This document shows positions 1,979-18,427 of a DNA stretch of 64,000 nt, piece after piece (the first letter of the stretch is position 1; every line of letters begins with the position of its first letter). This DNA comes from an uncultured Sphingomonadaceae bacterium (lineage in GTDB: Bacteria > Pseudomonadota > Alphaproteobacteria > Sphingomonadales > Sphingomonadaceae). The stretch covers positions 1,302,001 to 1,366,000 of the forward strand of contig CANLQE010000001.1 of the NCBI GenBank assembly GCA_947493215.1. Reading direction: 5' to 3'. Below the pieces are notes generated by a model. That model did no database searches and was not told the DNA's origin. It saw only the letters and a program-made list of their open reading frames with translations. The position numbers were made by a program, and so were the translations under genes.

Positions 1979-2339
1979 TCAAGTATCTCTCAGTTGCACG
2001 TCAAAAAAACAGACCAATAGTGAAATACAAAATAATTGGCGAGCAATGCTTTCGACATCTGATCGCAAATCCTTCCCTGCTAACGTCCAAGCTTAGCTAT
2101 CGAGGGGCTTCATTTTTCGTTGGCGTGCGATGCAAAAAAACCACACTTTCGTGGATATTAATGCGCGCAAAATTCATTCGCCACCGAATGACAATGTTCT
2201 AAACATCTACAATCATGGTAAAAAATAGGTATGTATAATTGGTCTTCATAAATATTATATTTGGTATGTATGAAAGGTTGACAATTTAGTTTGGTCAGCC
2301 CAATTTCCCTATCAATAATAAAAATAAGGGAGAATCGGG
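1979..2339. other. 361-bp divergent intergenic region with receptor control region
   Basis: The half nearer the hemolysin III gene shows nothing recognisable; a possible 60-codon frame at 2020-2202 lacks a credible start or similarity. The AT-rich half next to the TonB receptor (2221-2339) holds two pairs of GGT-type direct repeats, a TTGACA hexamer at 2278-2283 and the ribosome binding site AAGGGAG at 2326-2332. Confidence 0.6.
2225..2284 (+). promoter_or_regulatory. candidate GntR operator (two pairs of 13-bp-spaced repeats) and promoter of receptor 1
   Basis: GGT-type half sites begin at 2228 and 2241, and again at 2263 and 2276. Each pair is exactly 13 bp apart, with 22 bp between the pairs. 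The first 19 bases (2225-2243) are identical to 5653-5671 upstream of the second receptor. The last 24 (2261-2284) differ by one base from 5667-5690. TTGACA at 2278-2283 overlaps the last half site and could be a -35 box; no clear -10 is visible. Binding by the nearby GntR protein is inference. Confidence 0.6.
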
Positions 2340-5300
2340 ATGTATCAGGATGGAATTCGACGCGCGTCGGGCGTTAGCAGAATGAATATGATGGCGGCGC
2401 TGCTCGGAAGCACCGCTATTATGATGTTGGCCAGTCCAGTTTATGCGCAAGATGCCGCTACACAAGAAACAGTGGACAGCGCAGACGATGATGTCATCAT
2501 CGTTTCCGGCATTCGCAGTTCTCTTGCCAGTGCGCTCGCCGAAAAACGCGAAGCGGACAGTCTTGTTGAAATCATCCAAGCTGAGGATATCGGTAAGCTA
2601 CCCGATCAAAACCTTGCCGAGGTTCTCGAAAACGTCACGGGCGTTCAGATCACCAGAACAGCTGGTGTCGGTACAGGGGTTCAAATTCGCGGTACGAGCG
2701 CCAACAGAACCGAAATTAATGGCGTTGGTACTGTGGGCTCTGGTATTGGCACCGACATCGGCGGAAATCAGACTTCCGGCCGTGGTGGCATAAGCTTTGA
2801 AGATGTAAATGCAGCGATTATCGCTGCTGTTGAAGTAACCAAAGCGCCGCAAGCAAAAACTACGGAAGGTTCGGTGGGTGGTACCGTCAATTTGCGCACT
2901 ATTCGCCCTCTTGATCTGACGGATCGCGTGCTGTCTTTCCGCGCTCAGGGGGAATATAGTGAGCTTTCAGATAGTATCACACCTAGATTTTCCGGTAGCT
3001 TTGGTGACAGTTGGTCGACCGGCATTGGTGAAATTGGAATTGTGATAAGCGGAAGCTATACCAAGCAAGAAGCAACGTCATTCCGTCCCCGTGTTGATCG
3101 TGACGGTGGCCTCGTTGAGAATCTTAACGCGGTCGTCATTAGAAACGAAGACACCGACGACAACGATGCCACGCCAGAAGTACCTGTAGTACAAGCTGTG
3201 GCGCCCGCTGCTCAAGCATTCGATTTTCTTGGCATTCAATTTCTGAATCAGGAGCTGGAGAATTTCGAGTATGAAACCATCAACTTTGCCGGTACTTTGG
3301 AATGGGCTCCGAGTGATAATTTGAAGCTCTATTTTGATGGATTCTATAATGATCAGGAGCGTAGACAAGATAGCTCAAGAATTCAGGGGTCTGGTGTTAG
3401 CAGTCTACGCGACGTTAGCGTGCCGGATACGTTTGAAACGGTTAATTTTGGTTCATTGGATGGTGTTGCTCTGGGTAGTATCGAGGCGGCACTCACCGGC
3501 ACAATTGAACCAAATCTAGCTGTCGATGATGATGATCCAAATCTGCGCTTCTCAAGTGATACAGGTGCGCGCCTTACCAAAAGTGAACTCTACAGAGTAG
3601 GTGCGGAATGGGAAAGTGGACGCTTGTCGGCTCGCGTCGAAGCGTCAAGGTCAAGTGCCAACACGTCCAATCCCAATTTAAGCACAACATTGAACTTCAT
3701 TAATCCGAATGTGCCGCTGGACGGCACCAGTAACGATAATGGCGTTCCATTTCGTTATGATCTTTCTGGTGGCGCGCTGGCATTTGGCATCAATTTTGAT
3801 TCACCAGTCGCACCAACGGTTGATCAGCTGCTGGATCCAAACAATATCGTATTGGATGCGATAACGGCAGGAAATAATAGAACCGAAAACTCGGAAACAG
3901 CGGCTCGTCTCGATCTGTCTCTCGATCTGGAAGATTTGACCGGCTTCTTTACCTCCTTTGACTGGGGCTATCGCTATAGCAAAACGTCCAGTGAATTTGA
4001 CCAGGTCAGGTCGACCTTTGGTACAAGCGCAATAGCAAATAGCCCTAATGGCGCTCTGTTCGCAGATCTTCTTGTTCCCGGTCCAAACAACTTTGATTCT
4101 GCAGATGGCAGAGAACTGGCTTTCCGTAATTTTCTTCTCATCGACCCGGATCGCGCTTTTTCTGATCCGGATGGAACGTTGGACATTCTGCAAGGGGCCC
4201 TGGCGACAACAAATGGTTCCATAAATGACCCTGTTTCCAATCCATCTGCTTTCTTTGAGATCGACGAAACAACCCACGCTGTATACGGGCAAGCAAATTT
4301 TGATTTCGGTCCAGTCCGCGGGAATATCGGACTACGTTATGTCAGTACGACTGTTAACTCGTTAGGTAATAACGTTGCCGGCGGTGTAGTTACACCGGTA
4401 GTCACACGTGGCAATTATGATCTATTTTTACCGCGCGTAAACCTGATTGCAGACGTGACCGATGATATAGTTCTTCGTGCAAGTTTCGGCGAAGATATTA
4501 ATCGTCCGAATTTTAACAACCTGTCGACCTCGGTCAACTTTCCGACCGGGCCGAACAATGCTGTTAATATTGGTAACCCGGACTTGGCACCAGAAACAGT
4601 CACGTCTTATGATGCCTCGATTGACTGGTATTTTGCACCTGCATCGGTGCTGAGTATCGGTGTTTTCCACAAGAGGCGTTCAAACTTGTTTGTCACTCAG
4701 TTGGAAGATGCGGCGCTGGATGGAAGTGGTTTTCGCGACATCACAGATCCGTGTGAAGGCGGCGGTATCTTCAATCCGCTCCCTGATCGCAATGTCTTGT
4801 CTAACATTCCCGGCAATGGATTATGTGTTCCCATCTTGACCAGAATTAACGACACGGGAAGCACGACACAAACCGGTATCGAAGTGGCAGTTCAATATGA
4901 TCTCTCGCAATTTGAGGATGCGCTCGGTTTTGCATCAGGCTTCGGTATTATAGCCAACTATACCTACCAGGATTCCAGTGGTGGTGACGCCGTCAACACC
5001 TCTGCGGGTCGTGGAACGGATGTTTTTAACGCGATCAACGGTATTTATGACGAAAATAATTTCGTTCCAGTTACCGCTGTTCAAGGCCTTCTGGACTTCT
5101 CTAAACATGCCTACAACGCCACTCTATACTATGAGAAATATGGTATTTCGGCCCGGGCGCGTTATACATGGCGTAGTTCATTCCGTACCCAAGACACAGC
5201 AGCCGGTGCCAGTCTGAATAGTACTTTGGGCTTCCCAGTTGTTACAGAATCAAGAGGACAGCTTAACGCCAGTATCACTTACGATGTGACCGATTATCTA

Positions 5301-5432
5301 AACATTGGGGTTGAAGGCGTTAACCTCACGAAGTCCAAAATTGAACAGTCTTGTGTTAATAGCGGTGCGCTGTTGTGCTTCCAAGGCCTACCGGACCGCA
5401 GGCTGACTTTCGGTGCGACCCTCAGCTTCTAA
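2340..5432 (+). CDS. TonB-dependent receptor 1 (Caulobacter-type), probable alginate oligosaccharide uptake
   Basis: This outer-membrane receptor has 1030 residues. Residues 1-36 form a signal peptide ending VYAQD. A TonB-box-like DDVIIVSGIRSS follows at about 48-59. The plug domain (about 65-190) contains IGKLPDQNLAEVLENVTGVQI and the RGTS motif, typical of the TIGR01782 group. The rest is a 22-strand barrel ending in the aromatic residue Phe (ATLSF). The start is the ATG behind AAGGGAG. It is paralogous to the next gene in signal peptide, leader and flanking sequence. In alginate loci such receptors bring oligomers across the outer membrane using TonB energy. The substrate is inferred from the neighbouring lyases; the receptor fold is certain. 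Confidence 0.9.
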   Translation: MYQDGIRRASGVSRMNMMAALLGSTAIMMLASPVYAQDAATQETVDSADDDVIIVSGIRSSLASALAEKREADSLVEIIQAEDIGKLPDQNLAEVLENVTGVQITRTAGVGTGVQIRGTSANRTEINGVGTVGSGIGTDIGGNQTSGRGGISFEDVNAAIIAAVEVTKAPQAKTTEGSVGGTVNLRTIRPLDLTDRVLSFRAQGEYSELSDSITPRFSGSFGDSWSTGIGEIGIVISGSYTKQEATSFRPRVDRDGGLVENLNAVVIRNEDTDDNDATPEVPVVQAVAPAAQAFDFLGIQFLNQELENFEYETINFAGTLEWAPSDNLKLYFDGFYNDQERRQDSSRIQGSGVSSLRDVSVPDTFETVNFGSLDGVALGSIEAALTGTIEPNLAVDDDDPNLRFSSDTGARLTKSELYRVGAEWESGRLSARVEASRSSANTSNPNLSTTLNFINPNVPLDGTSNDNGVPFRYDLSGGALAFGINFDSPVAPTVDQLLDPNNIVLDAITAGNNRTENSETAARLDLSLDLEDLTGFFTSFDWGYRYSKTSSEFDQVRSTFGTSAIANSPNGALFADLLVPGPNNFDSADGRELAFRNFLLIDPDRAFSDPDGTLDILQGALATTNGSINDPVSNPSAFFEIDETTHAVYGQANFDFGPVRGNIGLRYVSTTVNSLGNNVAGGVVTPVVTRGNYDLFLPRVNLIADVTDDIVLRASFGEDINRPNFNNLSTSVNFPTGPNNAVNIGNPDLAPETVTSYDASIDWYFAPASVLSIGVFHKRRSNLFVTQLEDAALDGSGFRDITDPCEGGGIFNPLPDRNVLSNIPGNGLCVPILTRINDTGSTTQTGIEVAVQYDLSQFEDALGFASGFGIIANYTYQDSSGGDAVNTSAGRGTDVFNAINGIYDENNFVPVTAVQGLLDFSKHAYNATLYYEKYGISARARYTWRSSFRTQDTAAGASLNSTLGFPVVTESRGQLNASITYDVTDYLNIGVEGVNLTKSKIEQSCVNSGALLCFQGLPDRRLTFGATLSF

Positions 5433-5568
5433 AGAAAAATTACAAAACGATTGTGGCGACGTACGTGTTCTAATCTCGGCCCTTATCTGCGGTCTGTTAC
5501 AAATAAGCGCAGATGTTTTCGAGTTTATGAATCTGTGATCGCCAGTTTTAAAGAGCTCCAACAGGGGG

Positions 5569-5602
5569 TTGGCGCGGTGGGAGCTTGAACCTACCGCGCC
5601 AA
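5569..5602 (+). terminator. hairpin after receptor 1, probable intrinsic terminator
   Basis: A 13-bp stem (5569-5581 with 5590-5602, one G-U pair) encloses the loop AGCTTGAA and is followed by a short TTTT. It ends the first receptor transcript about 140 bases after the stop codon. A hairpin with the same loop follows the second receptor. Confidence 0.65.
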
Positions 5603-5652
5603 TTTTAAGCAGTGAGCCGAAGCGCATATCAAAATTTCGAGAATAACATCAC

Positions 5653-5690
5653 ATAGGTATGTATAATTGGTATGTATAAAAGGTTGACAA
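5653..5690 (+). promoter_or_regulatory. candidate GntR operator (three 13-bp-spaced repeats) and promoter of receptor 2
   Basis: GGT half sites begin at 5656, 5669 and 5682, exactly 13 bp apart. The first two read GGTATGTATAA/GGTATGTATAAA; the third is GGTTGACAA, which contains TTGACA at 5684-5689, a plausible -35 box. It is a compact version of the array in front of receptor 1. Regulator assignment is inferred from the adjacent gntR gene. Confidence 0.6.
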
Positions 5691-5745
5691 ATTGATCAGA
5701 CCACGCCAGTTTTCTTACAAACATAATAATACAGGGAGAATAGGG

Positions 5746-8700
5746 ATGTTTCGAGACGGTTTTTTCCGTGGGTCAATGGCTAGTAAAATGAGCATTGGAT
5801 CTGCATTATTGGCCAGTACCGCTGTCACGGCGATTGCAAGTCCGGCGCTGGCGCAAGATAGCGCGGCTGCTGCTGAAGATGAAAACACCATTATCGTTTC
5901 GGGCATCCGCGCCACCATTCAAGAATCCATCGCAACCAAAAAAGAAGCGACGACAATCGTTGATGCTCTTTCATCGGAGGAAATTGGTGATCTGCCCGCG
6001 TTATCGATTGGTGAGGCTCTAGAGACGCTTACTGGCGCGGCGTCGCATCGTGAGCAAGGCGGCGCAACGGAGATTTCGATTCGTGGTCTCGGGCCGTTTT
6101 TAGGCTCCACGGTATTAAACGGCCGCGAAGCAACGAATGGCAGCGGAGATCGATCCGTTAACTTTAGCCAATTCCCGTCGGAATTGTTTAACAAGGTCGC
6201 CATCTATAAGACTCAAGAGGCAAGCTTCATTGAAGGCGGCGTCTCAGGGCAGATCAGCCTCGAAACTGTTCGCCCCATTGACTATGGAAAGCGTCGCTTT
6301 CAAGGTGACTTCAAACTCAATTATAATCCGGACAATAGCGACCTTAACATTCGCGAGCGCAATTTGGGCTATCGCGGTACTGTGAGCTATATTGATCAAT
6401 TCAACGTAGGCGATGGTGAGGTGGGCATTTCACTCGGCTATTCTCGCAACGTGACCACTAATCCGGAGCAAGAGGTTCGCTCCAGCAGTGGTTTTCGTGA
6501 CTGTCGTCTAGCACCGGCCTCATCAAATGAAGGTATTTTTGAGGACGACAACTGCGATGATGGTGGCAGCTCGGGTGGTGATCTACTTCTCGAAATAGAT
6601 CCCGCGACTGGAACGGCGCCCGACGCTGATACGCCATTTTTGTTTACAGCGAGCTCGCGCTCGTTCCGTCAAAATATCACGAATGACAATCGCGACTCCG
6701 TGTTCGCTGCCGTTCAATTAAAGCCAACGCCTGATGTAGATATCAACTTTGATTTCCAATATTCTGATCGGAAATTCACGGAGATTCGCAACGATCTCGT
6801 TTTTGCAGAAAATCGACGTGTTGATGCGCCGGATGTTCCTCTTTCTAGACGGCTCCCATTTGATTTGATCGTCACGCCTGCCGGTTCATTGCAACAATTT
6901 ACCAACGAGCAGCGGATTGAAACCAACAGCCAATATGCCGAGCGCCTTGAAGAATATTTTGGCGGGGGCATTTCTATCGATGTCCAGGCTACAAGCCGAT
7001 TGAAGCTGTCATTTGACGCTTCCTATTCGGATACAAGTCGACGTGAAAACATCATTCAAACACGCTTACAGTCCGATCGCGAAGATATTTTTGGCAACAC
7101 AGTGCCGGGGACAAATGCTGCCCTAGAACGCGGTACCGGTGGTGTGCAACGAGACCGAGTTGAAACAGCAACCTTCATTGGTCAAAATGGATCTCAGGGC
7201 TATAATTTCATCGTTCAGAACTTTGATGTAACCAATCCTGACCTATTTGCCGATGATGCGCGTACCCGTGTTGATTTGAACCAGTTCCGCAACAATGATA
7301 TTTTGGGCATACGGGGTGATGTCGGATATGAATTTGACGGTGGTTTGCTTTCCAGCATCGAAGCTGGGGTCCGCTATTCGGAGCTTGGCTTCGACAGTGT
7401 GCCGCGTTCACGTCTGCAAGAGACTTATTCCGACGACGCTTTATCGACTGCAAACCTAGCTTGTCGAAATAGCGCCTTTCCAGAGAATAACTTTCTGTCG
7501 TCAATCAGCGGCGGCAATGCGCTCGTAACGAACGTTGATGATGCTGGTAATGTAATTGCTCAAGGCACAGGCAATAGTTTCGCGACGTTTGACCCACTCT
7601 GTCTGGTGCAGCAATTGGAGGCAGCGGACCCTGGCGATATCGAATTTGACGAAAACGGGGTTCCCATCATCCCAGGACCGGGTGTCAGTATTTCCAATGT
7701 AGATGTTACGGAAAAAACGTGGGCTGGATATTTGCAGGCGAATTTCAGTGGTGACTTTGGAGACATGCCGGTTCGCGGTAATGTTGGTCTTCGCGTTGTG
7801 AACACCAAAGTTCGATCCGTTGGGTTGAGGCTTCCATTGGTTACGCAGGCTAATCCTGATGGTACGATAGATGTCATTAATGATCCGAATGCAACAGGAT
7901 TTGATGAGGTTGTTGGCGGAGGAAGTTACACTGAGTTTCTGCCTAGCTTTAATATTGTCGCCGAAGTGGCTCCAAATATTCAGGCGCGTGCCGCGGTTTA
8001 TCGCGCATTGTCACGGCCTGACCCTTCTAGTTTGGGATTTGGACGGGCTTTCGGCGGATTGCAGGACGATGATTCCACATCAATTGCAGATGCGATTGGT
8101 AACGCCACGGCGAGTGGTAACCCATTTACGCAGCCACTCCTATCATGGAACTTTGACGCTGCTGTGGAATGGTATCCCAACCCGGATACGATTCTGGCTG
8201 CGGGTGTCTACTACAAGAGATTCAATGGTGGGTTTGAAAATACAACCCGGGTTGAAGAATTTATTGTCGATGGACAGGCCTTGCAGACACTGGTGACGAC
8301 CCAGGATACTGTTGGAGATTCCAGCACAATTTATGGTTTTGAAGTGACGGCCACTCATCGTTTCAGTTATTTGCCAAAACCGCTAGACGGGCTTGGGTTC
8401 AAGTTAAGCTATAACTATGCGAGCTCAAATTTCGAATTTGAAGACGCGCAATTTGGCGCTTCTCAGGTCTTCGGTGCGAATGGAACGCTTGTCGATCGGG
8501 TTGGGATTGTCCCGCCCGCAGAAATCTTCGGATTGTCGAAACATGTGCTGTCCGCTCAACTTTATTACCAGATCGGGGGCTTCGATTTTCAAGGCGTCTA
8601 CAAATATCGTAGCAATTATTTCCAGCAATTTATCAGTACGCCCGGAAACCTGCGTTACATTGGCAATACCGGCGTGTTCGAAGCACGACTATCCTATAAA

Positions 8701-8844
8701 TTGACGGACAATATCAAGTTCACGATTGAGGGTATCAACCTGTTCAACGAGCCGCGTAACCAGTTCAACCCGACGTTGGAGAATATTTCGGAGGTCAATG
8801 TTTACGGCCCTCGCTACTTCGCTGGTGTTAAATTCAAATTTTAG
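5746..8844 (+). CDS. TonB-dependent receptor 2 (Caulobacter-type), probable alginate oligosaccharide uptake
   Basis: This outer-membrane receptor has 1032 residues. I take the ATG at 5746, not the upstream TTG at 5692, because the leader AGGGAGAATNGGGATG is shared with receptor 1 and the N-terminus aligns with it (MFRDGFFRGSMASKMSIGSA). A signal peptide ends PALAQD, followed by the TonB-box-like NTIIVSGIRAT, a plug with the RGLGPFLGST motif, and a barrel ending in VKFKF. The two receptors probably arose by duplication and then diverged strongly in the barrel, which suggests different oligomer preferences (for example M-rich against G-rich, or different lengths); that is inference. The gene has its own promoter and a matching downstream hairpin. 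Confidence 0.9.
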   Translation: MFRDGFFRGSMASKMSIGSALLASTAVTAIASPALAQDSAAAAEDENTIIVSGIRATIQESIATKKEATTIVDALSSEEIGDLPALSIGEALETLTGAASHREQGGATEISIRGLGPFLGSTVLNGREATNGSGDRSVNFSQFPSELFNKVAIYKTQEASFIEGGVSGQISLETVRPIDYGKRRFQGDFKLNYNPDNSDLNIRERNLGYRGTVSYIDQFNVGDGEVGISLGYSRNVTTNPEQEVRSSSGFRDCRLAPASSNEGIFEDDNCDDGGSSGGDLLLEIDPATGTAPDADTPFLFTASSRSFRQNITNDNRDSVFAAVQLKPTPDVDINFDFQYSDRKFTEIRNDLVFAENRRVDAPDVPLSRRLPFDLIVTPAGSLQQFTNEQRIETNSQYAERLEEYFGGGISIDVQATSRLKLSFDASYSDTSRRENIIQTRLQSDREDIFGNTVPGTNAALERGTGGVQRDRVETATFIGQNGSQGYNFIVQNFDVTNPDLFADDARTRVDLNQFRNNDILGIRGDVGYEFDGGLLSSIEAGVRYSELGFDSVPRSRLQETYSDDALSTANLACRNSAFPENNFLSSISGGNALVTNVDDAGNVIAQGTGNSFATFDPLCLVQQLEAADPGDIEFDENGVPIIPGPGVSISNVDVTEKTWAGYLQANFSGDFGDMPVRGNVGLRVVNTKVRSVGLRLPLVTQANPDGTIDVINDPNATGFDEVVGGGSYTEFLPSFNIVAEVAPNIQARAAVYRALSRPDPSSLGFGRAFGGLQDDDSTSIADAIGNATASGNPFTQPLLSWNFDAAVEWYPNPDTILAAGVYYKRFNGGFENTTRVEEFIVDGQALQTLVTTQDTVGDSSTIYGFEVTATHRFSYLPKPLDGLGFKLSYNYASSNFEFEDAQFGASQVFGANGTLVDRVGIVPPAEIFGLSKHVLSAQLYYQIGGFDFQGVYKYRSNYFQQFISTPGNLRYIGNTGVFEARLSYKLTDNIKFTIEGINLFNEPRNQFNPTLENISEVNVYGPRYFAGVKFKF

Positions 8845-8859
8845 GCTCCAAACGGGGAA

Positions 8860-8891
8860 CGGTGCGGTGGGAGCTTGAACCCACCGCACCG
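8860..8891 (+). terminator. hairpin after receptor 2, probable intrinsic terminator
   Basis: A perfect 12-bp stem (8860-8871 with 8880-8891) carries the loop AGCTTGAA, the same loop as the hairpin behind receptor 1. Only a short ATTT follows, so termination may be inefficient. Confidence 0.6.
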
Positions 8892-8916
8892 ATTTGAGGG
8901 AACGCGGTAATTCAAA

Positions 8917-8948
8917 CTGGTCGACAATTGGTATGGCTCTGGGGTAAG
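8917..8948 (+). promoter_or_regulatory. candidate GntR operator upstream of gntR (autoregulation)
   Basis: GGT half sites begin at 8919, 8930 and 8943. The last two (TTGGTAT and GGGGTAA) keep the 13-bp pitch seen at the other sites of the locus; the first pair is 11 bp apart. The site is 55-85 bases upstream of the gntR start, as expected for autoregulation. It is weaker than the other arrays. Confidence 0.4.
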
Positions 8949-9002
8949 CAACTGTAGATAGCGGAAAATGTTTTGATTCTATAAAGAGGATTTCACCAAC
9001 GT

Positions 9003-9743
9003 ATGGCTGAACAAAGGCTTTTTCACAGCGTAGCTGAACAGATAAGCGTCCTTATCGAAGAGGGCGTTTTTCCTCCTGGGACGCGTTTGCCGGGCGAGCG
9101 TGAATTGGCCGAACGTTTTGAGGTCAGTAGGGTGACAATCCGCGAGGCAGAAATAGCGTTGCAGGCGATTGGCCGTATCGAAATAAAAACCGGCTCCGGC
9201 GTGTATGTGTGTGAAGAGCAACCAAAAAATCCTAATGATCTGCCGGATGTGAGCGCCTTTGAGCTTACGGAGGCACGGTCGCTTATCGAAGCAGAGGCGG
9301 CGGCTTTGGCAGCCAAGGTGATTTCTGACGAGGACCTCCAAGAGCTTGATCGGCTTATCATAGCGATGGCAAGTAGCGATGAAGAAGCCTCACTGGTGGC
9401 CGACCGCGAATTTCATGCGACTATCGCGAAGGCATCGGGAAATGGGGCATTGGTTCACACGATTGAAACGCTTTGGCGGATGCGAGAAGAACTGCCTGCG
9501 GTAAAGCATAGCTATGATGCGGTTTGTGAAGAAGATTCCAAAATTCGCGCGCAGGAGCATCAGGATATACTAGATGCGCTAAAGGCCCGAAATCCGGAAG
9601 CCTCACGTCGGGCAATGCGAGAGCATTTTCTACGCCTAATAGGCTCTATGCTTGATGCCACGGAACAGGAAGCATTGCGTGAAGTGCAGCAGCGCGCCAG
9701 CGAAAGCCGAGAGCGCTTCTTGCAAACCGCTAGAATGGGCTAA
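9003..9743 (+). CDS. GntR/FadR-family transcriptional regulator of the alginate locus
   Basis: The protein has 246 residues. Residues 8-70 form the GntR winged helix-turn-helix, with LPGERELAERFEVSRVTIREA and the wing GSGVYV. Residues 88-215 form an FCD ligand domain whose likely metal ligands are Asp134, His138, His186 and His208. FCD regulators of uronate pathways usually respond to pathway sugars such as KDG or KDPG and repress in their absence. The start is ATG behind AAGAGGA. It sits between the receptors and the lyases and has its own upstream repeats, so it is the best candidate for binding the 13-bp-spaced sites. Regulator class is certain; ligand and sign of control are inferred. Confidence 0.88.
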   Translation: MAEQRLFHSVAEQISVLIEEGVFPPGTRLPGERELAERFEVSRVTIREAEIALQAIGRIEIKTGSGVYVCEEQPKNPNDLPDVSAFELTEARSLIEAEAAALAAKVISDEDLQELDRLIIAMASSDEEASLVADREFHATIAKASGNGALVHTIETLWRMREELPAVKHSYDAVCEEDSKIRAQEHQDILDALKARNPEASRRAMREHFLRLIGSMLDATEQEALREVQQRASESRERFLQTARMG

Positions 9744-9749
9744 TATCAT

Positions 9750-9788
9750 AATTGGTATATCATTTTGGTATTGATAATTGGTTGACAA
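9750..9788 (+). promoter_or_regulatory. candidate GntR operator (three 13-bp-spaced repeats) and promoter of the lyase operon
   Basis: Half sites TTGGTAT, TTGGTAT and TTGGTTGACA have their GG at 9754, 9767 and 9780, a pitch of exactly 13 bp. TTGACA at 9782-9787 may be the -35 box. The layout matches that upstream of receptor 2. The region lies directly after the gntR stop and drives the PL6-to-kdgK gene run. Confidence 0.6.
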
Positions 9789-9839
9789 AAAATAGACTCG
9801 CTGATAGCTCTAAATATCATAATAAGAGGATGTTTGGGG

Positions 9840-12089
9840 ATGGTGCTCAGGTTTTGCCTGCTTTTGTTAGCCTGCAATATAGTTGCGTTTCCAGCAGCAG
9901 CTGAACAATATCTTGTTAAAAGTCAGGTTGAATATTTTGCCGCCGAGAAAAAGCTAAAGGCTGGCGACAAAATCGTCTTGGCCAATGGTGTGTGGCGTGA
10001 TTTTGAGATTAAATTTTCCGGCCAAGGGACTAAACCAAAGCCCATCACATTGACGGCACAAGATTTTGGTAAGGTCATCATCTCTGGCCAATCTAACCTA
10101 CGTATCGGTGGCAAGTATATGCTTGTGACCGGGCTGGTTTTCAAAAATGGTTATAGCCCCACTGGCGAAGTGATTTCTTTTCGCCGGTCCAAAGAAGACT
10201 TGGCTTCATTCAGCCGGGTGACCGAAGTTGTCATTGACCATTTCAACAAACCCGATCGCTTTGAAAGCGACTATTGGGTTGGCATGTATGGCCAGCATAA
10301 TCGGTTTGATCACAATCATCTGGTGGGTAAGAGTAACAAGGGCGTGACCTTTGCAGTTCGGTTAGATTCGAAGGACAGCCAGGATAATCATCACCGCATC
10401 GATCATAATTATTTCGGTCCGCGGCCCGTTTTGGGTTCTAATGGCGGTGAGACATTGCGGATCGGCACCAGCAAATATTCGATGTTCGATTCCAATACGG
10501 TTGTTGAGAATAACTATTTTGACCGCTGTGACGGTGAAGTCGAAATCATCTCTTCCAAATCAGGTGGGAATATATATCGCGGCAATGTCTTTTATGAATC
10601 CAGCGGTACGCTGACACTGCGCCATGGTGATGGCAACCTCGTTGAAAACAATATATTCTTTGGCAATGCCAAGGACCATACCGGCGGTGTCCGGGTCATA
10701 AATCAAGACCAGACCATTCGTAACAATTATATGGAAGATCTTCGCGGGACCGGCTTTTCCAGCGCATTGACGGTGATGAACGGCGTCCCCAATTCGCCTG
10801 TTAACCGCTATGTTCAAGTGAGCCGGGCGATCATTGAAAATAACAGTGTCGTTGATAGCGCAAGGATTACCTTCAACGCCGGTGCCGACAAAGAGCGGTC
10901 TGCGCCGCCAATAAACAGTCGTTTCGTTCAAAACCTTCTCAGTGGAGCGGGCGATGGAACATTTATCAAGATTCAGGATGATATCAGCGGGATTAGCTTT
11001 GCCGATAATATTATGACTGCAGGTAAAGCTGAGAAGCCCGTTGCCGGTATTCCAGAGCAGAAACTGGCGTTAAAGCGCGCAGAAAATGGTCTGCTCTATC
11101 CAGAAGGTTCTGCAATAGGGGTGTCCCGTGATTTAGAGCCTGTCACGCGGGATCAAGTTGGTGTTTCCTGGTATCCGAAGTCTCCCAGCGGAGATCGTTT
11201 CGGGACAGGACAGTCTATTGCGGTGGGTCCCGGTGAAGACAGTCTGACCGATGCCTTTGCAGAAGCAAAGGAAGGCGATCGTCTGGTTCTGAGCGCGGGC
11301 GAATATGTGGTGAACAAGATACTCCCGCTGAACAAGGCTGTGTCCATTGAAGGCCCGACCGAAGGAGCAGCTAAAATCACCTTTGCCCGGCCTTCTTTAG
11401 TGGAAATACAGGAAGGTGGCAGCGTGCAGCTTGTCAATGTCACGGTTGATGGCTCTCTTGCGCCTGACTCGGTTGGCAACGCAGTTATCCGGACCACCAG
11501 TTTCCCGATGCAGTCCAATTTCCTGATCAATCTCGATGGCGTTTCCGTCACTAATCTGGATGTGAACAAGTCCTTCCACGTTATCGCGTTGGGTAAAAGT
11601 AGTTTCGCTGATCGGGTCAGCATTAAGAACAGCAATTTCAGCAATATTTCCGGGTCAGTGTTACAAGCGGCCGCGGAAACGGAGGACTACGGCCAGTATA
11701 ACGCTGAATATATTGAAGTCTCCAATTCCAATTTCAAAGACATTGGCGGCGCAGCATTCAATATCTATCGCGGAGGTCGCGATGAAAGTACCTTTGGGCC
11801 GCATTTCTCACTGACCAGTTCCAATTTTTTGAACGTCGGCAAAGGAGGAAATAATGCAAATGGAGCATCCATGGTTCTTCATGGCGTCCAACATAGCGAC
11901 ATCAGCAGCAACAATTTCCTCGACAATGCGCCGATAAAGATTGTCCATACGGTCGGTCGGCCGCAAACGCGGATCTCGGGCAACAAGTCGTCCAAAACAC
12001 CCGCACCAATTCTTGAGGAACTGAATTACCAAGGCGCTCACCGTGCCATTTTGTCCGAAAACCAATTTGAAGGCGCAGCAAAGCCATGA
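9840..12089 (+). CDS. PL6 family alginate lyase (two-domain, AlyGC-like)
   Basis: The secreted enzyme has 749 residues, starting at the ATG at 9840 behind AAGAGGA; an upstream TTG is less likely. Residues 1-22 are a signal peptide (ending PAAA). Residues 25-400 are a right-handed beta-helix of the chondroitinase B/PL6 type with NGGETLRIG at 201-209. Lys240 in EIISSKSGGN and Arg261 in TLTLRHG match the catalytic Lys/Arg pair of PL6, with the same 21-residue spacing as K220/R241 of AlyGC, as I recall it. Glu233 and Glu235 fit the calcium site. Residues about 450-749 form a second beta-helix as in AlyGC. It cleaves alginate by beta-elimination. Chondroitinase activity is less likely because the pathway genes are those for DEH. 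It overlaps the next gene by 4 bp. Confidence 0.9.
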   Translation: MVLRFCLLLLACNIVAFPAAAEQYLVKSQVEYFAAEKKLKAGDKIVLANGVWRDFEIKFSGQGTKPKPITLTAQDFGKVIISGQSNLRIGGKYMLVTGLVFKNGYSPTGEVISFRRSKEDLASFSRVTEVVIDHFNKPDRFESDYWVGMYGQHNRFDHNHLVGKSNKGVTFAVRLDSKDSQDNHHRIDHNYFGPRPVLGSNGGETLRIGTSKYSMFDSNTVVENNYFDRCDGEVEIISSKSGGNIYRGNVFYESSGTLTLRHGDGNLVENNIFFGNAKDHTGGVRVINQDQTIRNNYMEDLRGTGFSSALTVMNGVPNSPVNRYVQVSRAIIENNSVVDSARITFNAGADKERSAPPINSRFVQNLLSGAGDGTFIKIQDDISGISFADNIMTAGKAEKPVAGIPEQKLALKRAENGLLYPEGSAIGVSRDLEPVTRDQVGVSWYPKSPSGDRFGTGQSIAVGPGEDSLTDAFAEAKEGDRLVLSAGEYVVNKILPLNKAVSIEGPTEGAAKITFARPSLVEIQEGGSVQLVNVTVDGSLAPDSVGNAVIRTTSFPMQSNFLINLDGVSVTNLDVNKSFHVIALGKSSFADRVSIKNSNFSNISGSVLQAAAETEDYGQYNAEYIEVSNSNFKDIGGAAFNIYRGGRDESTFGPHFSLTSSNFLNVGKGGNNANGASMVLHGVQHSDISSNNFLDNAPIKIVHTVGRPQTRISGNKSSKTPAPILEELNYQGAHRAILSENQFEGAAKP

Positions 12090-14266
12090 TCCCAAAGCTT
12101 ATATGGGTCGCATTGTGGGGCGTTGCATCTTCCGCCGCTGTTGCCAGTTCTGACCGGCTCTCCCAGACCGGACAGGTCGCAGTGGCAACCTCTCAGGCAC
12201 CGCTTTTTGAAGCCGAAATGCAGCGCGCATTGGCGTTTGTTGATGGCATGATGGAAGCTGGCATAATTGTACCTGTCCCCAAAGATCCTGGCGGCGGATA
12301 TACCCACGAGCAGCACAAACAAAATTACAAAGCAATTTATCTTGCTGGGCAGCTCCATCGCATTACCGGCGAACAAAAATACGCCGATTATGGGCGCGAT
12401 CTATTGCTTGCCTATGCGAAACTTTACCCGACATTGGACGAACATCCGGCGCGCAAAAATAGCCAGAGTTCAGGTCGGATTTTCTGGCAGGTGCTGAACG
12501 ACGCGATGTGGATGGTGCATAGCATACAGGGCTATGAAGCTATTCGTAGCGAACTTTCACAAGCTGACCGTGAGAATATTGATAATAATCTGTTCCGTAA
12601 GGCCGCTGCATTTCTGTCCACCGGTTCAGCGGTGACGTTTAGCAAAATTCACAATCATGCCACTTGGGCCACGGCTGGCGTGGGGATGACGGGTTATGTT
12701 CTGGACGACAAAGAGCTGGTCGATATCGCTCTGCTTGGACTCGATAAGAGCGGCGAAACTGGATTTTTGCGCCAGAGCGAACTGCTGTTTTCACCCGACG
12801 GCTATTATACCGAAGGCCCCTATTACCAGCGCTTCGCATTGAAACCATTTGTAGTCTTCGCCGGGGCGATTGAGAAAAACGATCCGGCGCGCAAAATTTT
12901 TGAGCACCGCGATGGAATATTGCTGAAGGCGCTCCGCACTACGATCCAGTTGACCTATGACGGATATTTTTTCCCATTTAACGATGCGATCAGGGATAAA
13001 AGTCTCAACACTGACGAGCTCTATCACGGCGTTGCCATCGCTTATAGCAAAACGCGTGATCCTGCGCTGCTGTCTATCGCACAGTGGCAGGGGCGTACGG
13101 TCTTGTCAGATGACGGGAAACGGGTTGCGGCTGATTTAGCTGCGGGCAAAGCCACTCCTTTTCCGTTCAAATCGCTGCTGCTTTCCGATGGGCCTGATGG
13201 GAAACAAGGCGCTGTCACCATCTTACGCAACGGCGATAGTACAAGCGGACAAGCACTGATCGGCAAGAATAGCTCGCAGGGCATGGGGCACGGCCATTTC
13301 GACAAGTTAAGCTGGCAATATTATGACAATGGTAATGAGATTGTTACGGACTATGGTGCCGCACGTTTTCTGAATATCGAAGCCAAGGACGGCGGCCGGT
13401 ATTTGCCCGAAAATGAGACATGGGCGAAACAGACGATAGCGCATAATAGCTTGGTGGTAGATGAGAAAAGCCATTTCAACGGCGATCCCAAAGTCGGCGG
13501 CAAGTTCGCGCCGGAGCAATTATTCTTTACCGACAAACCAGGCAGTCAAATCAGTAGCGCAAAAATGGCCGATGCTTACCCAGGTGTTTCATTCACCCGG
13601 ACACAGGCGTTGCTCAATATTGATGGTCTTGGTCAACCACTTGTCGTCGATGTTACCCGGGTGCAATCCGACAAGGCGCATCAATATGACATGCCACTCC
13701 ATTATAACGGCCAGATTATGCGGGTGGGTTTTGATGTCCAATCTCATGAGAACGCGCGCCCCGTTTTGGGGACTGAAAATGGATATCAACATATCTGGGT
13801 TGACGCGACCGGCAAGCCATCCGGCGCCGACAACGCGTTCGTAACCTGGATATTGGATGACCGTTTTTACACCTCACGTTGGATCCCGCAGGTCGGAAGT
13901 GAAGCGATGTTGGTAGAAAGCGGGGCTCATGACTCCAATTTCAATTTGCGACGCGAGCCGATAATCATCCAACGTGTTTCGGACGCCCAGAATACGACTT
14001 TCGCGAGTATATTGGAAGCACACGGACGTTATGATGGGGCTGAAGAGCGCACCACTGACGGTGATAGTCAGGTCAAATCCATCACGCTGGAGCAGGTAGA
14101 CGGAGCCGATCTCCTTGTTGTTGAAACAATAGATGGAGCCTCGGAAGTGTTGGCCATTTCCTATAACAGCGACGCCGGCAAAAAACATAACGCCACTATT
14201 GACGGACAGAAAATCAGCTGGAGCGGCTATGCGGCTCACATCAAATTGGGGAGGGCGACGAAATGA
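12086..14266 (+). CDS. PL17 oligo-alginate lyase (heparinase II/III fold)
   Basis: The protein has 726 residues with a signal peptide (about 1-20, ending AVA). The N-terminal alpha/alpha toroid (about 40-330) carries Asn190-His191 in KIHNHATW and the tyrosine motif YTEGPYYQRF at 241-250. The C-terminal beta-sheet domain carries GMGHGHFDKLSW (His402, His404) and VTDYG, which fit the zinc site. These residues correspond to N201/H202, Y258 and the zinc histidine of Saccharophagus Alg17C. The enzyme is expected to release unsaturated monouronate exolytically from oligomers made by the PL6 lyase, probably in the periplasm. The start overlaps the PL6 stop (ATGA), which points to translational coupling. 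Confidence 0.92.
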   Translation: MIPKLIWVALWGVASSAAVASSDRLSQTGQVAVATSQAPLFEAEMQRALAFVDGMMEAGIIVPVPKDPGGGYTHEQHKQNYKAIYLAGQLHRITGEQKYADYGRDLLLAYAKLYPTLDEHPARKNSQSSGRIFWQVLNDAMWMVHSIQGYEAIRSELSQADRENIDNNLFRKAAAFLSTGSAVTFSKIHNHATWATAGVGMTGYVLDDKELVDIALLGLDKSGETGFLRQSELLFSPDGYYTEGPYYQRFALKPFVVFAGAIEKNDPARKIFEHRDGILLKALRTTIQLTYDGYFFPFNDAIRDKSLNTDELYHGVAIAYSKTRDPALLSIAQWQGRTVLSDDGKRVAADLAAGKATPFPFKSLLLSDGPDGKQGAVTILRNGDSTSGQALIGKNSSQGMGHGHFDKLSWQYYDNGNEIVTDYGAARFLNIEAKDGGRYLPENETWAKQTIAHNSLVVDEKSHFNGDPKVGGKFAPEQLFFTDKPGSQISSAKMADAYPGVSFTRTQALLNIDGLGQPLVVDVTRVQSDKAHQYDMPLHYNGQIMRVGFDVQSHENARPVLGTENGYQHIWVDATGKPSGADNAFVTWILDDRFYTSRWIPQVGSEAMLVESGAHDSNFNLRREPIIIQRVSDAQNTTFASILEAHGRYDGAEERTTDGDSQVKSITLEQVDGADLLVVETIDGASEVLAISYNSDAGKKHNATIDGQKISWSGYAAHIKLGRATK

Positions 14267-14637
14267 GCGCGACTGATACCAAACCCAGCCAGAGCGAATC
14301 CTTTGTCCGCGCCTCAGATGTCGCGGTGGAGGATTTGGGCAACGGGATCAAGCGGCAAATACTCAGCTATGGCCCGGATATCATGAACTGTCGGCTTTGG
14401 TTTGAGAGTGGGTCAGCTGGTGATATCCACGATCATTTTCACAGCCAGACGACCTATATCGAGAGCGGGCTTTTCCTTGCGCACATCGATGGCGAAGAAC
14501 GTGAAATCGGACCGGGTGACAGCGTCTATATAAAACCAAATGCGCGGCATGGCGTGACCTGTATTGAAGCGGGCAGCCTGCTCGATTCATTCAGTCCTGT
14601 GCGTCAGGACTTTCTTGCTTCGGGGGAACAAACATGA
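14263..14637 (+). CDS. kdgF: KdgF-like cupin (unsaturated uronate linearisation)
   Basis: A 124-residue single cupin barrel. Metal-site residues visible are His56 and His58 with Gln62 in DIHDHFHSQ, and His96 in NARHGV; the second cupin motif PGDSVYIKPNARH is intact. KdgF proteins convert the unsaturated uronate produced by pectate or alginate lyases into the linear keto form (DKI or DEH). Placement between the exolytic lyase and the transporter, with ATGA overlaps on both sides, supports that role. There is no signal peptide, so it should act in the cytoplasm, which would imply import of unsaturated uronate before linearisation. The family is secure; the reaction is inferred from context. Confidence 0.82.
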   Translation: MSATDTKPSQSESFVRASDVAVEDLGNGIKRQILSYGPDIMNCRLWFESGSAGDIHDHFHSQTTYIESGLFLAHIDGEEREIGPGDSVYIKPNARHGVTCIEAGSLLDSFSPVRQDFLASGEQT

Positions 14638-15920
14638 GTAGCGTTGTAAAAATTGGGAAATTCCGCTGGGCGATCGTTAGCCTTGTCGCACTAGCAACCA
14701 TCATCAACTATATTGATCGCGGGGCACTCGGCTTTTTGTGGCCGGAAATTTCCGATGATCTTGGTATGACGAAAACCGATTATGCCATAATTTTGAACGT
14801 TTTCACCTTTGCCTATGCTTTTGGTCAGACGCTTTTTGGAAAGATATTTGACTGGATAGGCACACGGCTTGGCTTTGTGCTGTCCATTGTCGTCTGGTCT
14901 GCGGCGACCATGCTGCATGCGGTTTCAACCGGGCTCATGAGTTTTGCCATTTTTCGGGCATTGCTTGGGGTATCGGAGGCGGGTAACTGGCCGGGCGCAA
15001 CCAAAGCCAATGCGGAGTGGTTTCCGATCAACGAGCGTGCACTAGCCCAGGGCATTTTCAATTCCGGTGCCGCCATTGGTGGAATCGTCTCGGCTCCGAT
15101 CATTGCCTATCTCTTTGTCTTTTTAGGATCATGGCAGGCAACTTTTATCGCGATTGGTGCGCTCGGTTTTCTTTGGTTGATACCTTGGTTGATTATTTAC
15201 AAATCCGGACCGGAATCACATCCTTGGCTATCGCCGGAAGAGCGCGACTATATTTTAACCGGCCAAAGAAATGTCGAAACTAACGAAGTTGCCGACTATG
15301 CTCCCAATTCAAAAGAGATCCTTTCGCGGAAGGAAAGCTGGGGCGTTATTATGGCTTCGTTCTTTCTCGATCCTATTTGGTGGCTATTTGTTGGCTGGTT
15401 ACCGCTATATCTTAATGAGACATATGGTTTTGGCGTAAAGGAAATCGGCCTTTATGCTTGGGTACCTTATGTCGGTGCGATGTTCGGTGCCTGGTTTGGC
15501 GGAATCCTTGCGCAAAACCGCATCAAGGCAGGCTGGACCGTCAACAAGACTCGTAAATCGGTTATTGGCCTCGGCGGTTTGATCATGCTGGTATCACTTC
15601 TGATGACCACGCAAGCGGCGACGCCGCTGGTTGCCGTTCTTCTGATGGCCGCCATTCTCTTCGGATTCCAGACGGCGGTCGGAAATATCCAGACCTTACC
15701 GAGCGATTTTTACAGCGGGAAATCAGTCGCTTCTCTTGCGGGTTTTGCTGGCACTGCTGCGAAGCTAGCCGTGGTGGGGTTAAACTTCCTCATCCCGATT
15801 ATCACGGTCAACAGCTACACGCCTGCGTTCGTTGTTGGCGCTGCGCTGGCGATCCTCACGGTTCTCTCAGTGTTGATTTTCTGCACGGATATTAAACCCC
15901 TGAAGCCCAAATCCGCCTAA
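14634..15920 (+). CDS. MFS transporter, hexuronate (ExuT/anion:cation symporter) type
   Basis: The protein has 428 residues and twelve predicted membrane segments. The cytoplasmic-loop signature GKIFDWIGTRLGF lies between segments 2 and 3, and the segment IINYIDRGALGFLWPEI is typical of the ACS family that includes ExuT and glucarate/galactonate carriers. It should bring unsaturated uronate or DEH through the inner membrane with protons. It overlaps the KdgF stop by ATGA. This resembles the MFS route (ToaA-C-like) of marine alginolytic bacteria, not the ABC 'super-channel' of Sphingomonas sp. A1. Substrate is inferred. Confidence 0.85.
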   Translation: MSSVVKIGKFRWAIVSLVALATIINYIDRGALGFLWPEISDDLGMTKTDYAIILNVFTFAYAFGQTLFGKIFDWIGTRLGFVLSIVVWSAATMLHAVSTGLMSFAIFRALLGVSEAGNWPGATKANAEWFPINERALAQGIFNSGAAIGGIVSAPIIAYLFVFLGSWQATFIAIGALGFLWLIPWLIIYKSGPESHPWLSPEERDYILTGQRNVETNEVADYAPNSKEILSRKESWGVIMASFFLDPIWWLFVGWLPLYLNETYGFGVKEIGLYAWVPYVGAMFGAWFGGILAQNRIKAGWTVNKTRKSVIGLGGLIMLVSLLMTTQAATPLVAVLLMAAILFGFQTAVGNIQTLPSDFYSGKSVASLAGFAGTAAKLAVVGLNFLIPIITVNSYTPAFVVGAALAILTVLSVLIFCTDIKPLKPKSA

Positions 15921-15957
15921 TTTAACGCAACTTTCATTTTTCAAAACGGGAAAAACT

Positions 15958-16713
15958 ATGACTAAACTAACCAACAAAGTAGCAATCGTCACTGGCGGAA
16001 GCCGGGATATTGGCCGCGCCGTTTCCGTCAAGCTTGCCAGCGAAGGCGCGAAGGTTGTGGTCAATTATTGCAACAATGAAGAGCAGGCCAATGAGACGTT
16101 GGCAGAAATCGAAGCCGCTGGCGGAACGGCTGTCGCAGTCAAAGGTGACATGACGAAGCCTGAGGATGTGGCCGCACTAGTGGCTGCTTCTCAAGCAGCC
16201 TTTGGCGACCAGATTGACATTTTGGTCAATGTTGTTGGCGGCTTGGTTGAGCGCAAGGGCCTTGCCGAAATGGATCTCGATTTTTTCGAGCATGTCATGC
16301 GCCTCAACGTGACATCTACGTTCCTCGCGACACAGGCGGTGGTTCCGCATATGAAAGAAGGCGCATCCATCGTGAACTTCGCCTCACTGGCTGGTCGTGA
16401 TGGCGGCGGACCGGGTGCCGCGGCATACGCCACTTCCAAAGGCGCTGTGATGACCTTCACGCGTGCAATGGCAAAAGACCTCGGACCCAAAGGCATACGC
16501 TGCAATTCACTCTGCCCGGGCATGATTGCTACATCATTCCACGACACATTTACCGCCGACGCAGTGCGTGAAAATGTTGCCAACTCGACCCCTCTGCGCC
16601 GTCAGGGCCGCGCAGAAGAAACCGCCGATGCGACGGTGTATCTGGTGTCAGATGAAGCATCTTTTATCACTGGCACCAACATTGACATTAATGGCGGTCT
16701 GTTCTTCTCTTGA
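15958..16713 (+). CDS. SDR family oxidoreductase, probable DEH reductase
   Basis: A 251-residue classical short-chain dehydrogenase. The cofactor motif TGGSRDIG is at 12-19, the catalytic Ser143 is in NFASLAG, Tyr157 and Lys161 form YATSK, and a C-terminal INGG follows. In alginate loci an SDR in this position reduces DEH (4-deoxy-L-erythro-5-hexoseulose uronate) to 2-keto-3-deoxygluconate with NAD(P)H, like A1-R of Sphingomonas sp. A1. The residues after the second beta strand (NYCNNEE) do not settle NADH against NADPH. It is 37 bp behind the transporter and 9 bp ahead of the aldolase. The function is inferred from context but fits the gap in the pathway. Confidence 0.8.
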   Translation: MTKLTNKVAIVTGGSRDIGRAVSVKLASEGAKVVVNYCNNEEQANETLAEIEAAGGTAVAVKGDMTKPEDVAALVAASQAAFGDQIDILVNVVGGLVERKGLAEMDLDFFEHVMRLNVTSTFLATQAVVPHMKEGASIVNFASLAGRDGGGPGAAAYATSKGAVMTFTRAMAKDLGPKGIRCNSLCPGMIATSFHDTFTADAVRENVANSTPLRRQGRAEETADATVYLVSDEASFITGTNIDINGGLFFS

Positions 16714-16722
16714 TGGGAAGCA

Positions 16723-17385
16723 ATGGATGAAAAGAAAATGAACATAGAACAGCAACTAGAAGCCCGATTGGCCAAAGCACCGGTCGTGCCGCTCGTCGGA
16801 GGCAGTGATCCGGCGGTCGCAGTGAAAACGGCCAACGCACTCAGTGCGGGCGGACTGAGCATTATTGAGGTCGTATTGCGGACCGATGAGGCAGTGGATT
16901 GTATGGAAGCCATTGTCAAAGAGACTTCCGGGCTCATCGTGGGGGCCGGAACCGTGCTGACGGTCGAGCAGGCAGAAGAAGTGATATCGCGCGGCGCTCA
17001 ATTTGTCGTATCACCCGGGCTGGTGGATGAAGTGGCTGAATATTGCCTGGAACGATCTGTTCCTATGTTTGCCGGTACGATGACCGCAGGTGAAGTCCAG
17101 CGCGCTTATGCGCTAGGTCTTCGCACGGTTAAATTTTTTCCGGCATCGCTGGCAGGCGGGGTGCCGATGTTAAAGGCGCTTTCGTCTGTGTTTCGCGACA
17201 TGCGATTCATGCCAACCGGCGGAGTATCTGCAGGTAATCTGGGCGAGTTTCTGGCCGTGCCATCGGTGATTGCCTGCGGTGGCAGCTGGCTCACTCCTGC
17301 TGCGGAAATTGAGGCGGATAATTTTGAAGCAATAACCAATTTGGCGCGCGAGGCGGTAGCGGCCGCCAGCGCCGCCAGACCATAA
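16723..17385 (+). CDS. eda: 2-dehydro-3-deoxy-phosphogluconate (KDPG) aldolase
   Basis: A 220-residue class I aldolase with a TIM barrel. The Schiff-base lysine is Lys137 in RTVKFFPAS. Glu49 in IEVVLRT corresponds to the catalytic glutamate, and MPTGGVS binds phosphate. It cleaves KDPG to pyruvate and glyceraldehyde-3-phosphate, the last step of the alginate branch. The start could be the ATG at 16723 (behind GGGAAG) or the one at 16738; the family N-terminus does not decide. The neighbours make alginate-derived KDPG the likely substrate, although it may also serve the Entner-Doudoroff pathway. Confidence 0.9.
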
Positions 17386-17395
17386 GGAAGATATC

Positions 17396-18427
17396 ATGGC
17401 AGATTTTTTGTCATTCGGGGAAATCATGCTGCGGTTAAAAACACCTGGGCATGAGCGGTTTTTTCAATCGCCTGAATTTGAAGCTACTTTTGGTGGCGGT
17501 GAAGCCAATGTCGCGGTTGCGTTGAGCAATTACGGCCTGTCCTCAGCTTTTGTTACTGCGCTACCCGATAATGACATCGGCCAGCACGCTATCAATGAAG
17601 TGCGTCGCTTTGGCGTTGATACCTCGATGATCCGTCGCAGCGGCGATCGTGTTGGAATCTATTATCTGGAATCGGGGGCAAACCAGCGACCCTCAAAAGT
17701 TATCTATGATCGCGCGGCGTCATCGATTTGCGAATGCGGCCCCGGCGATTTCGACTGGCCGACAATTTTTAGCGGCGCAAAATGGCTGCACATTACAGGT
17801 ATCACTCCCGCGCTTAGCCAATCCGCAGCTGACCTCAGCCTTGAATGCCTCAAAGAAGCGAAAAAGGCCGGCGTGACGGTGTCATGCGATTTCAATTATC
17901 GCGGCAAATTGTGGAAATATGGCAAGACCGCGCCAGAGGTGATGACCGAGCTGGTGAAATATGTCGATGTTGGCATTGCCAATGAAGAGGATTGTCAAAA
18001 GTCGCTAGGTATCAGTGTCGATGTCGACGTTGAAGCAGGCGAACTCGATACCAAGAAATATGAAGCACTGTCAGAAAAGGTGCTGAAACTCTATCCTGAG
18101 ATGAAAACAATCGCGATTACCCTGCGTGAGAGCATGAGTGCCGACCGCAATGGCTGGTCGGCCTGTCTGCGCGAACGTGGCGGAGATTTCAAACTATCGC
18201 GGCGTTATGAAATTACTGATATTATCGATCGCGTTGGCGGCGGTGACAGCTTTGCATCCGCGTTGATCTGTGGGTTGAATAAATATGAAGACCGGCAGCA
18301 ATCATTGGAGTTCGCTGTGGCCGGAAGCTGTTTGAAGCATAGCATTTTGGGAGACTTTAACCGTGTTTCGGTCAGCGAAGTAGAAAAACTAATGGATGGC
18401 GACGGCTCAGGGCGAGTACAGCGTTAA
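17396..18427 (+). CDS. kdgK: 2-dehydro-3-deoxygluconokinase (PfkB family)
   Basis: A 343-residue ribokinase-type sugar kinase. The N-terminal [12 protein letters not shown] and [12 protein letters not shown] bind sugar. FNYRGKLW at 166-173 is typical of KDG kinases. The C-terminal [13 protein letters not shown] carries the catalytic Asp284; the usual GAGD is here GGGD. It phosphorylates KDG to KDPG, which the preceding aldolase cleaves. The start ATG follows AAGGAAG, 11 bp after eda. It is the last gene of the run; no strong terminator follows, but a GTCCGC palindrome lies 40 bp downstream. Confidence 0.92.

Follow-up and report, generated by a model that had tools for sequence, protein, structure and literature searches.

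Tandem GGTAT repeats fused to -35 hexamers in the alginate locus of a Sphingomonadaceae bacterium, probable operator arrays of the linked GntR/FCD regulator

Introduction

What are the regularly spaced GGTAT-type repeats that precede the alginate genes of an uncultured Sphingomonadaceae bacterium, and which protein reads them? The question is raised by a stretch of 64,000 nucleotides (the window) of its 3.69 Mb genome, whose relatives are Sphingomonadaceae, and in which positions 2340-18427 form an alginate locus extending from two TonB-dependent receptors (TBDR1 and TBDR2) to a sugar kinase. A first-pass annotation had reported half-sites of the GGT type at a 13-bp step before both receptors, the gntR gene and the operon that begins with the PL6 lyase, and direct reading of the sequence located every one of them where it had been placed (Table 1). 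The repeats are a real and conserved composite of operator and promoter. They probably represent arrays of operators for the GntR/FCD regulator whose gene lies at 9003-9743, on which dimers would be stacked at a fixed pitch, with one operator doubling as the -35 hexamer, and through which the locus would be repressed.

Repeat arrays in the window and the genome

In front of TBDR1, TBDR2 and PL6 the last half-site coincides with a -35-like TTGACA, as had been noted before. The half-sites of TBDR1 had been described as two pairs; their positions stand, and they are better described as one array with steps of 13, 22 and 13 bp. The pattern GGTAT-N8-GGTW was detected seven times in the window, one match (14969) lying inside a gene; 100 shuffled versions averaged 0.36 matches and never gave seven. 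Circular reasoning was to be avoided, and a 25-bp matrix was therefore trained on 27 promoters from other genera only and scored on both window strands; its top four anchors were 5682, 2276, 9780 and 2241, all above the highest score of 16.3 obtained in 30 random 64-kb sequences.

Across the genome, GGTAT-N5-W-N2-GGTW displayed 12 matches, whereas its reversed control displayed 34, so the clustering and not the total number is unusual. Random scattering over the genome had been named as the observation that would speak against the repeats; half of the matches (6 of 12, including the disputed 8930 pair) fall in the alginate locus. Loose genome scans with two mismatches gave about 2,000 matches for GGTAT-N8-GGTAT and about 700 for GGT-N10-GGTTGACA, not above their reversed controls, and were set aside. 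Among the 298 genomes of the family, 8 contained the strict form GGTAT-N5-A-N2-GGTTGACA, at 10 places in all (reversed pattern, 3), including three in the genome studied here, five in five other genomes bearing an ortholog of the GntR protein, and two in ortholog-free genomes (G271 and G013) that are taken for chance, as judged on 301 unannotated bases each. With one mismatch, ATTGGTATGAYA matched 41 times in the genome versus 7 for controls; its sole exact match (49134-49145) is located 31 kb past the alginate genes, in a region where open reading frames of both strands overlap.

Conserved design in relatives

Upstream regions of TBDR1, TBDR2 and PL6 from the ortholog loci were collected (69), and 62 were brought into register by their -35-like anchor, taken as position 0, the seven lacking an anchor being dropped; GGTAT was counted at four of five letters or better. 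The core observed in 34 ortholog loci is GGTAT-N8-GGTTGACA, usually with an outer unit ATTGGTATGACA 22-23 bp further out, this outer unit being only 13 bp out in the TBDR2 and PL6 promoters of the window. The half-site occupied offset -13 in 42 promoters, -36 or -35 in 38, -26 in seven, and one or other of these in 56, against a mean of 0.77 at the remaining offsets, with a recurring flanking A at -39, -16 and -3. In the window genus the -13 unit is present in all 12 promoters and the triple form (-26, -13, 0) in 5 of 12; elsewhere the triple form was seen in two promoters. The 13-bp step of the first-pass annotation is thus conserved in relatives.

A second survey covered 79 loci of named genomes (from the best 80 of 275 matches; these and the 33 fetched loci overlap), in which 251 GGTTGAC sites on both strands were accompanied by a unit at -13 (79 sites), -36 (50) or -35 (27). 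The search made no use of gene starts; 87 of 93 marked sites fell in the 400 bp upstream of TBDR1, TBDR2 or PL6. In these alignments the deep feature is a pair of units 13 bp apart that merges with the -35 hexamer, joined by one more unit 13 or 22-23 bp upstream of it; the 13 and 23 bp steps differ by about one helical turn.

Nature of the repeat unit

By its letters the unit, with the consensus ATTGGTATgACA and its strongest part in ATTGGTAT, appears to be a degenerate pseudo-palindrome of the FadR type. The operator rule of the FadR subfamily is TKGT-N3-ACMA (PMC4494728); it is fitted by the distal units of other genera, AATTGGTATGACARAA (31 promoters), and by the full palindromes of distant relatives, and poorly by the right half in the window. 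The first-pass annotation had set the sites outside FadR-type practice, which is not supported, since GT-ATG-AC of the distal unit ATTGGTATGACA matches GT-N3-AC, relatives carry right halves or full TTGGT-N3-ACCAA palindromes, and direct repeats are on record for NanR. Among 15 non-sphingomonad ortholog loci, exact TTGGT-N3-ACCAA occurred five times, each copy lying no more than 400 bp upstream of TBDR1, TBDR2 or PL6; the N2 form occurred twice, before gntR and PL6; and the other spacers (N0, N1, N4-N7) once, not before those genes. Palindromes with one mismatch numbered 98 for N3 in the sphingomonad loci versus 39-55 for other spacers. The unit fused to the -35 hexamer, ATTGGTTGACA, equals the distal unit minus one base and may consequently act as operator and -35 hexamer both.

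Many PL6 promoters carry ATGCCA or ATACCA, a right half, where the left half would stand, and in two loci (L082 and L085) both halves occur together as TTTGGCATGCCAAA. After removal of identical stretches, which was done for this comparison only, the left half at -13 paired with GGTTGACA in 74 of 75 cases and the right half at -10 with GATTGACA in 21 of 24; all 21 right-half cases with GA are PL6 promoters of related lineages, so that a Fisher test overstates their independence. On a reading of this pairing that is itself improbable, the regulator might take its second half-site either inverted, as in classic FadR-type operators, or direct at 13 bp, and the direct partner would be dispensable wherever an inverted one exists.

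The linked GntR protein

The protein comprises a GntR winged helix (PF00392, 65.2 bits, cut-off 27) followed by an FCD domain (PF07729, 85.7 bits, cut-off 24.3), the architecture of the FadR subfamily, and its structure model (mean predicted local distance difference test score 87.8) matches GntR/FCD structures. Orthologs were recovered at 34 loci in 32 of the 298 family genomes with at least 59% identity, the next relatives having at most 47%. In 385 genomes of the class, searched at E 1e-45, no ortholog was seen outside the family, where matches were 40-44% identical; the named-genome survey, within its best 80 of 275 matches, showed relatives of 55-59% identity in other orders and in Gammaproteobacteria.

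The PL17 lyase was detected in 33 of the 298 genomes, the ortholog in 32 and both in 31; the one ortholog genome without a counted PL17 is 66% complete, and its contig ends inside PL17. Two loci of the same family, L198 (genome G060) and L199 (G248), keep PL6-PL17 and lack the ortholog, and in these the box was found at 0 of 10 anchors, without any GGTAT pair. In L198 a LacI regulator and a TRAP transporter lie nearby, possibly reflecting a change of regulator. At 24 loci of GntR paralogs (37-47% identity), from which L097 and L114-L118 were left out, 1 of 83 anchors carried the unit at -13, against a background of 1.02; at L097 the receptor promoter beside a 44% paralog shows boxes by eye, and that genome also has the ortholog. 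This co-occurrence, together with the absence of sites where the gene is missing, makes the linked GntR the likely binder, as had been proposed; nothing was found that requires a second regulator, which had been offered as an option, and the side-by-side arrangement of dimers, offered with it, appears the likeliest.

By alignment, the FCD domain keeps the zinc ligands of NanR, one aspartate and three histidines (D134, H138, H186 and H208), and R92; none of these residues varies in 30 orthologs. Past the FCD domain, a long C-terminal helix (residues 210-246, window 9630-9740) has S235, R236, R238 and F239 invariant in the same orthologs and is a candidate surface for contact between dimers. The 32-residue N-terminal extension of NanR was not found in the 30 orthologs, which start directly at the winged helix, ruling out an arm of the NanR kind.

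Proposed mechanism and alternative explanations

For the stacked repressor arrays we infer that the linked GntR binds, as one dimer on each unit in contact with its neighbours, that it represses, and that an effector releases it. From one dimer to the next the distance would be 13 bp or, with roughly one extra turn of the helix, 22-23 bp. The 13-bp step would rotate a dimer against its neighbour by approximately a quarter turn, to which 22-23 bp adds one full turn, and the angular relation would stay equal, so that neighbours could touch. As the promoter-side unit ATTGGTTGACA would be operator and -35 hexamer at once, a filled array would block RNA polymerase, and this coverage makes repression the likeliest sign. 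N-Acetylneuraminic acid (Neu5Ac), 4-deoxy-L-erythro-5-hexoseulose uronate (DEH), 2-keto-3-deoxygluconate (KDG) and its 6-phosphate (KDPG) share a keto-deoxy-acid head; DEH, KDG or KDPG is hence a probable inducer. Such an alginate-derived 2-keto-3-deoxy sugar acid would bind at the FCD metal site and free both receptors and the lyase/catabolic operon together, and gntR would carry a weaker operator copy.

Several observations weigh against this scheme. The poor right halves of the window units (GGTATGTATAA and GGTATATCATT) make one dimer per unit less clear there; the gammaproteobacterial loci show no N3 excess among one-mismatch palindromes (N3 9, N4 10); the ortholog loci that did not yield the composite number 12 of 64 in sphingomonads, 2 of 5 in other Alphaproteobacteria and 8 of 10 in Gammaproteobacteria; the GG/GA exchange is bound to lineage; only two loci test the loss of the regulator; and the protein is without the extension that NanR uses for co-operation. 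In addition, no -10 box passing the promoter scan lies 16-18 bp behind the three window TTGACA hexamers, which leaves room for activation, in which the same GntR on the same units would recruit RNA polymerase to weak -10 promoters through its upstream dimers. Such a role would suit the distal unit, which by common spacing rules would sit at an activator-like position about 69 bp before the presumed start, but activation is held unlikely, as the array overlaps a near-perfect -35 hexamer, a TAT stands at the right distance (16 bp past TTGACA) in 26 of 62 promoters, and the GntR regulators AusR (alginate) and NanR (sialic acid) are described as repressors.

The weak right halves and the left halves at exactly 13 bp in the window, together with the pairing of left halves with GGTTGACA and right halves with GATTGACA, would also agree with a head-to-tail dimer bridging two direct half-sites 13 bp apart, one being the GGTTG of the -35 unit. 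The palindromes of the distal unit and of distant relatives stand against it, and the half exchange, nearly confined to PL6 promoters, may amount to few events; the arrangement is quite improbable, and for the whole family plain direct half-sites are ruled out by those palindromes and by the exchange pattern. Binding by another regulator is very unlikely: the genome holds further FCD-type GntR genes (best 33% identity), but the two ortholog-free loci are devoid of sites, the paralog loci do not exceed background, and the half-site is of the FadR-subfamily type. An origin by chance, or by a recent duplication of promoter DNA rich in AT, suggested by the likeness of the stretches upstream of TBDR1 and TBDR2, is of negligible probability, since other genera and two gammaproteobacterial loci share the register and the shuffles and random sequences fall below the window; chance is ruled out by the shuffles and the outside-genus matrix, for the inner pair by the matrix in particular.

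The gntR promoter and other features of the locus

The gntR pair of the first-pass annotation, 8930/8943, was judged to lie outside the array, as both half-sites are conserved only in L119 (98% GntR identity) among nine aligned relatives. The register 8906/8919, which that annotation had overlooked, fits better, with a matrix score of 8.0 (rank 10) that alone is not significant; GGTCGACA is conserved in six of the nine relatives, in four of which GGTAT (L119) or GGTTT (L124, L125 and L132) precedes it as GGTAT-N8-GGTCGACA or GGTTT-N8-GGTCGACA. Many gntR genes outside the window genus (L072-L088) have a single AATTGGTATAG site ahead of the start, the pattern expected for simple autoregulation.

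Table 1. Alginate genes and repeat arrays of the window
Feature	Position	Strand	Evidence
TBDR1 array, outer units	2225..2249	+	GGTAT 2228, GGTCT 2241, step 13 bp; matrix score 17.2, 4th in window
TBDR1 array, inner units	2260..2283	+	GGTAT 2263, GGTTGACA 2276, TTGACA 2278-2283; score 28.6, 2nd in window
TonB-dependent receptor 1 (TBDR1)	2340..5432	+	Pfam, NCBIfam TIGR01782
TBDR2 array	5653..5689	+	GGTAT 5656, GGTAT 5669, GGTTGACA 5682 (steps 13, 13), TTGACA 5684-5689; score 31.0, top of window
TonB-dependent receptor 2 (TBDR2)	5746..8844	+	Pfam, NCBIfam TIGR01782
gntR promoter, better register	8903..8926	+	GGTAA 8906, GGTCGACA 8919, 13-bp step; TCGACA replaces TTGACA
gntR pair of the first-pass annotation, judged outside the array	8930..8947	+	8930/8943; score 5.4; both half-sites kept in 1/9 relatives
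GntR/FCD regulator, proposed binder	9003..9743	+	PF00392 and PF07729 over cut-off; 34 ortholog loci in 32/298 family genomes
PL6 array	9751..9787	+	GGTAT 9754, GGTAT 9767, GGTTGACA 9780 (steps 13, 13), TTGACA 9782-9787; score 25.1, 3rd in window
PL6 lyase, PL17 oligoalginate lyase, cupin, MFS transporter, SDR, KDPG aldolase, sugar kinase (KDG kinase-like)	9834..18427	+	Pfam, NCBIfam

Two near-identical stem-loops with the loop AGCTTGAA were observed at 5571-5600 (139 bp past TBDR1) and 8861-8890 (17 bp past TBDR2), and the two genome copies of GGGAGCTTGAACC are exactly these; a similar hairpin lies upstream of gntR in several relatives. They are perhaps terminators or elements of mRNA stability.

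Comparison with known systems

The nearest named protein models are the hexuronate regulators ExuR/UxuR (NF008571 and NF007588), which together with NanR (NF003011) stay below their NCBIfam cut-offs (114.6 of 396, 100.8 of 442 and 98.1 of 260 bits, respectively). ExuR/UxuR operators are single palindromes that are not known to have a fixed tandem pitch, and the half-site ATTGGTAT equals one half of the palindrome bound by UxuR. Both NanR, of the FadR subfamily, and NagQ, of the HutC subfamily, have been reported with direct TGGTAT repeats; the comparison also drew on PMC8012715, PMC5343134, PMC12125979 and PMC13390454. NanR of Escherichia coli, with its (GGTATA)3 operator, is alike in being a FadR-subfamily GntR protein with an FCD-type effector domain, tandem direct GGTAT and a sugar-acid regulon, and the window GntR also keeps its zinc ligands and its arginine that grips the Neu5Ac carboxylate. 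It differs in that its dimers stack on tandem GGTATA with a pitch of 9 and 8 bp at nanA, whereas the steps here are 13 and 22-23 bp; in its co-operation through the N-terminal extension; and in its operator, said to be downstream of the polymerase site, while the present one is fused to the -35 hexamer. NagQ resembles the window system in belonging to the GntR superfamily and in its direct TGGTATT repeats and sugar regulon, and differs in its HutC subfamily and effector domain. AusR of Zobellia galactanivorans, a member of Bacteroidota, is alike by description, being reported at second hand as a GntR repressor of alginate genes with single, double or triple operator copies (PMC7874173 and PMC8286568). 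The pitch and the fusion to the -35 hexamer appear new, and the operator, most likely of a FadR-type GntR regulator, is known in kind; a search of titles and abstract openings, with subscription papers outside it, returned no paper on this arrangement, which is not claimed to be unpublished.

Biological meaning

The arrays offer an operator code, open to testing, by which marine sphingomonads would control alginate use, tying three transcription units to one regulator, and if repression by stacked dimers is true, one sugar-acid signal would switch on the whole alginate-digestion locus. The replacement of a left half and its GG by a right half and its GA represents a natural experiment on change of operator orientation; were the second half-site indeed accepted in either orientation, the DNA-binding domains of an FCD regulator would turn freely and operators would swap orientation in evolution. 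The fixed 13 and 22-23 bp steps, present without a NanR-like arm, raise the question of how FadR-type dimers co-operate on DNA.

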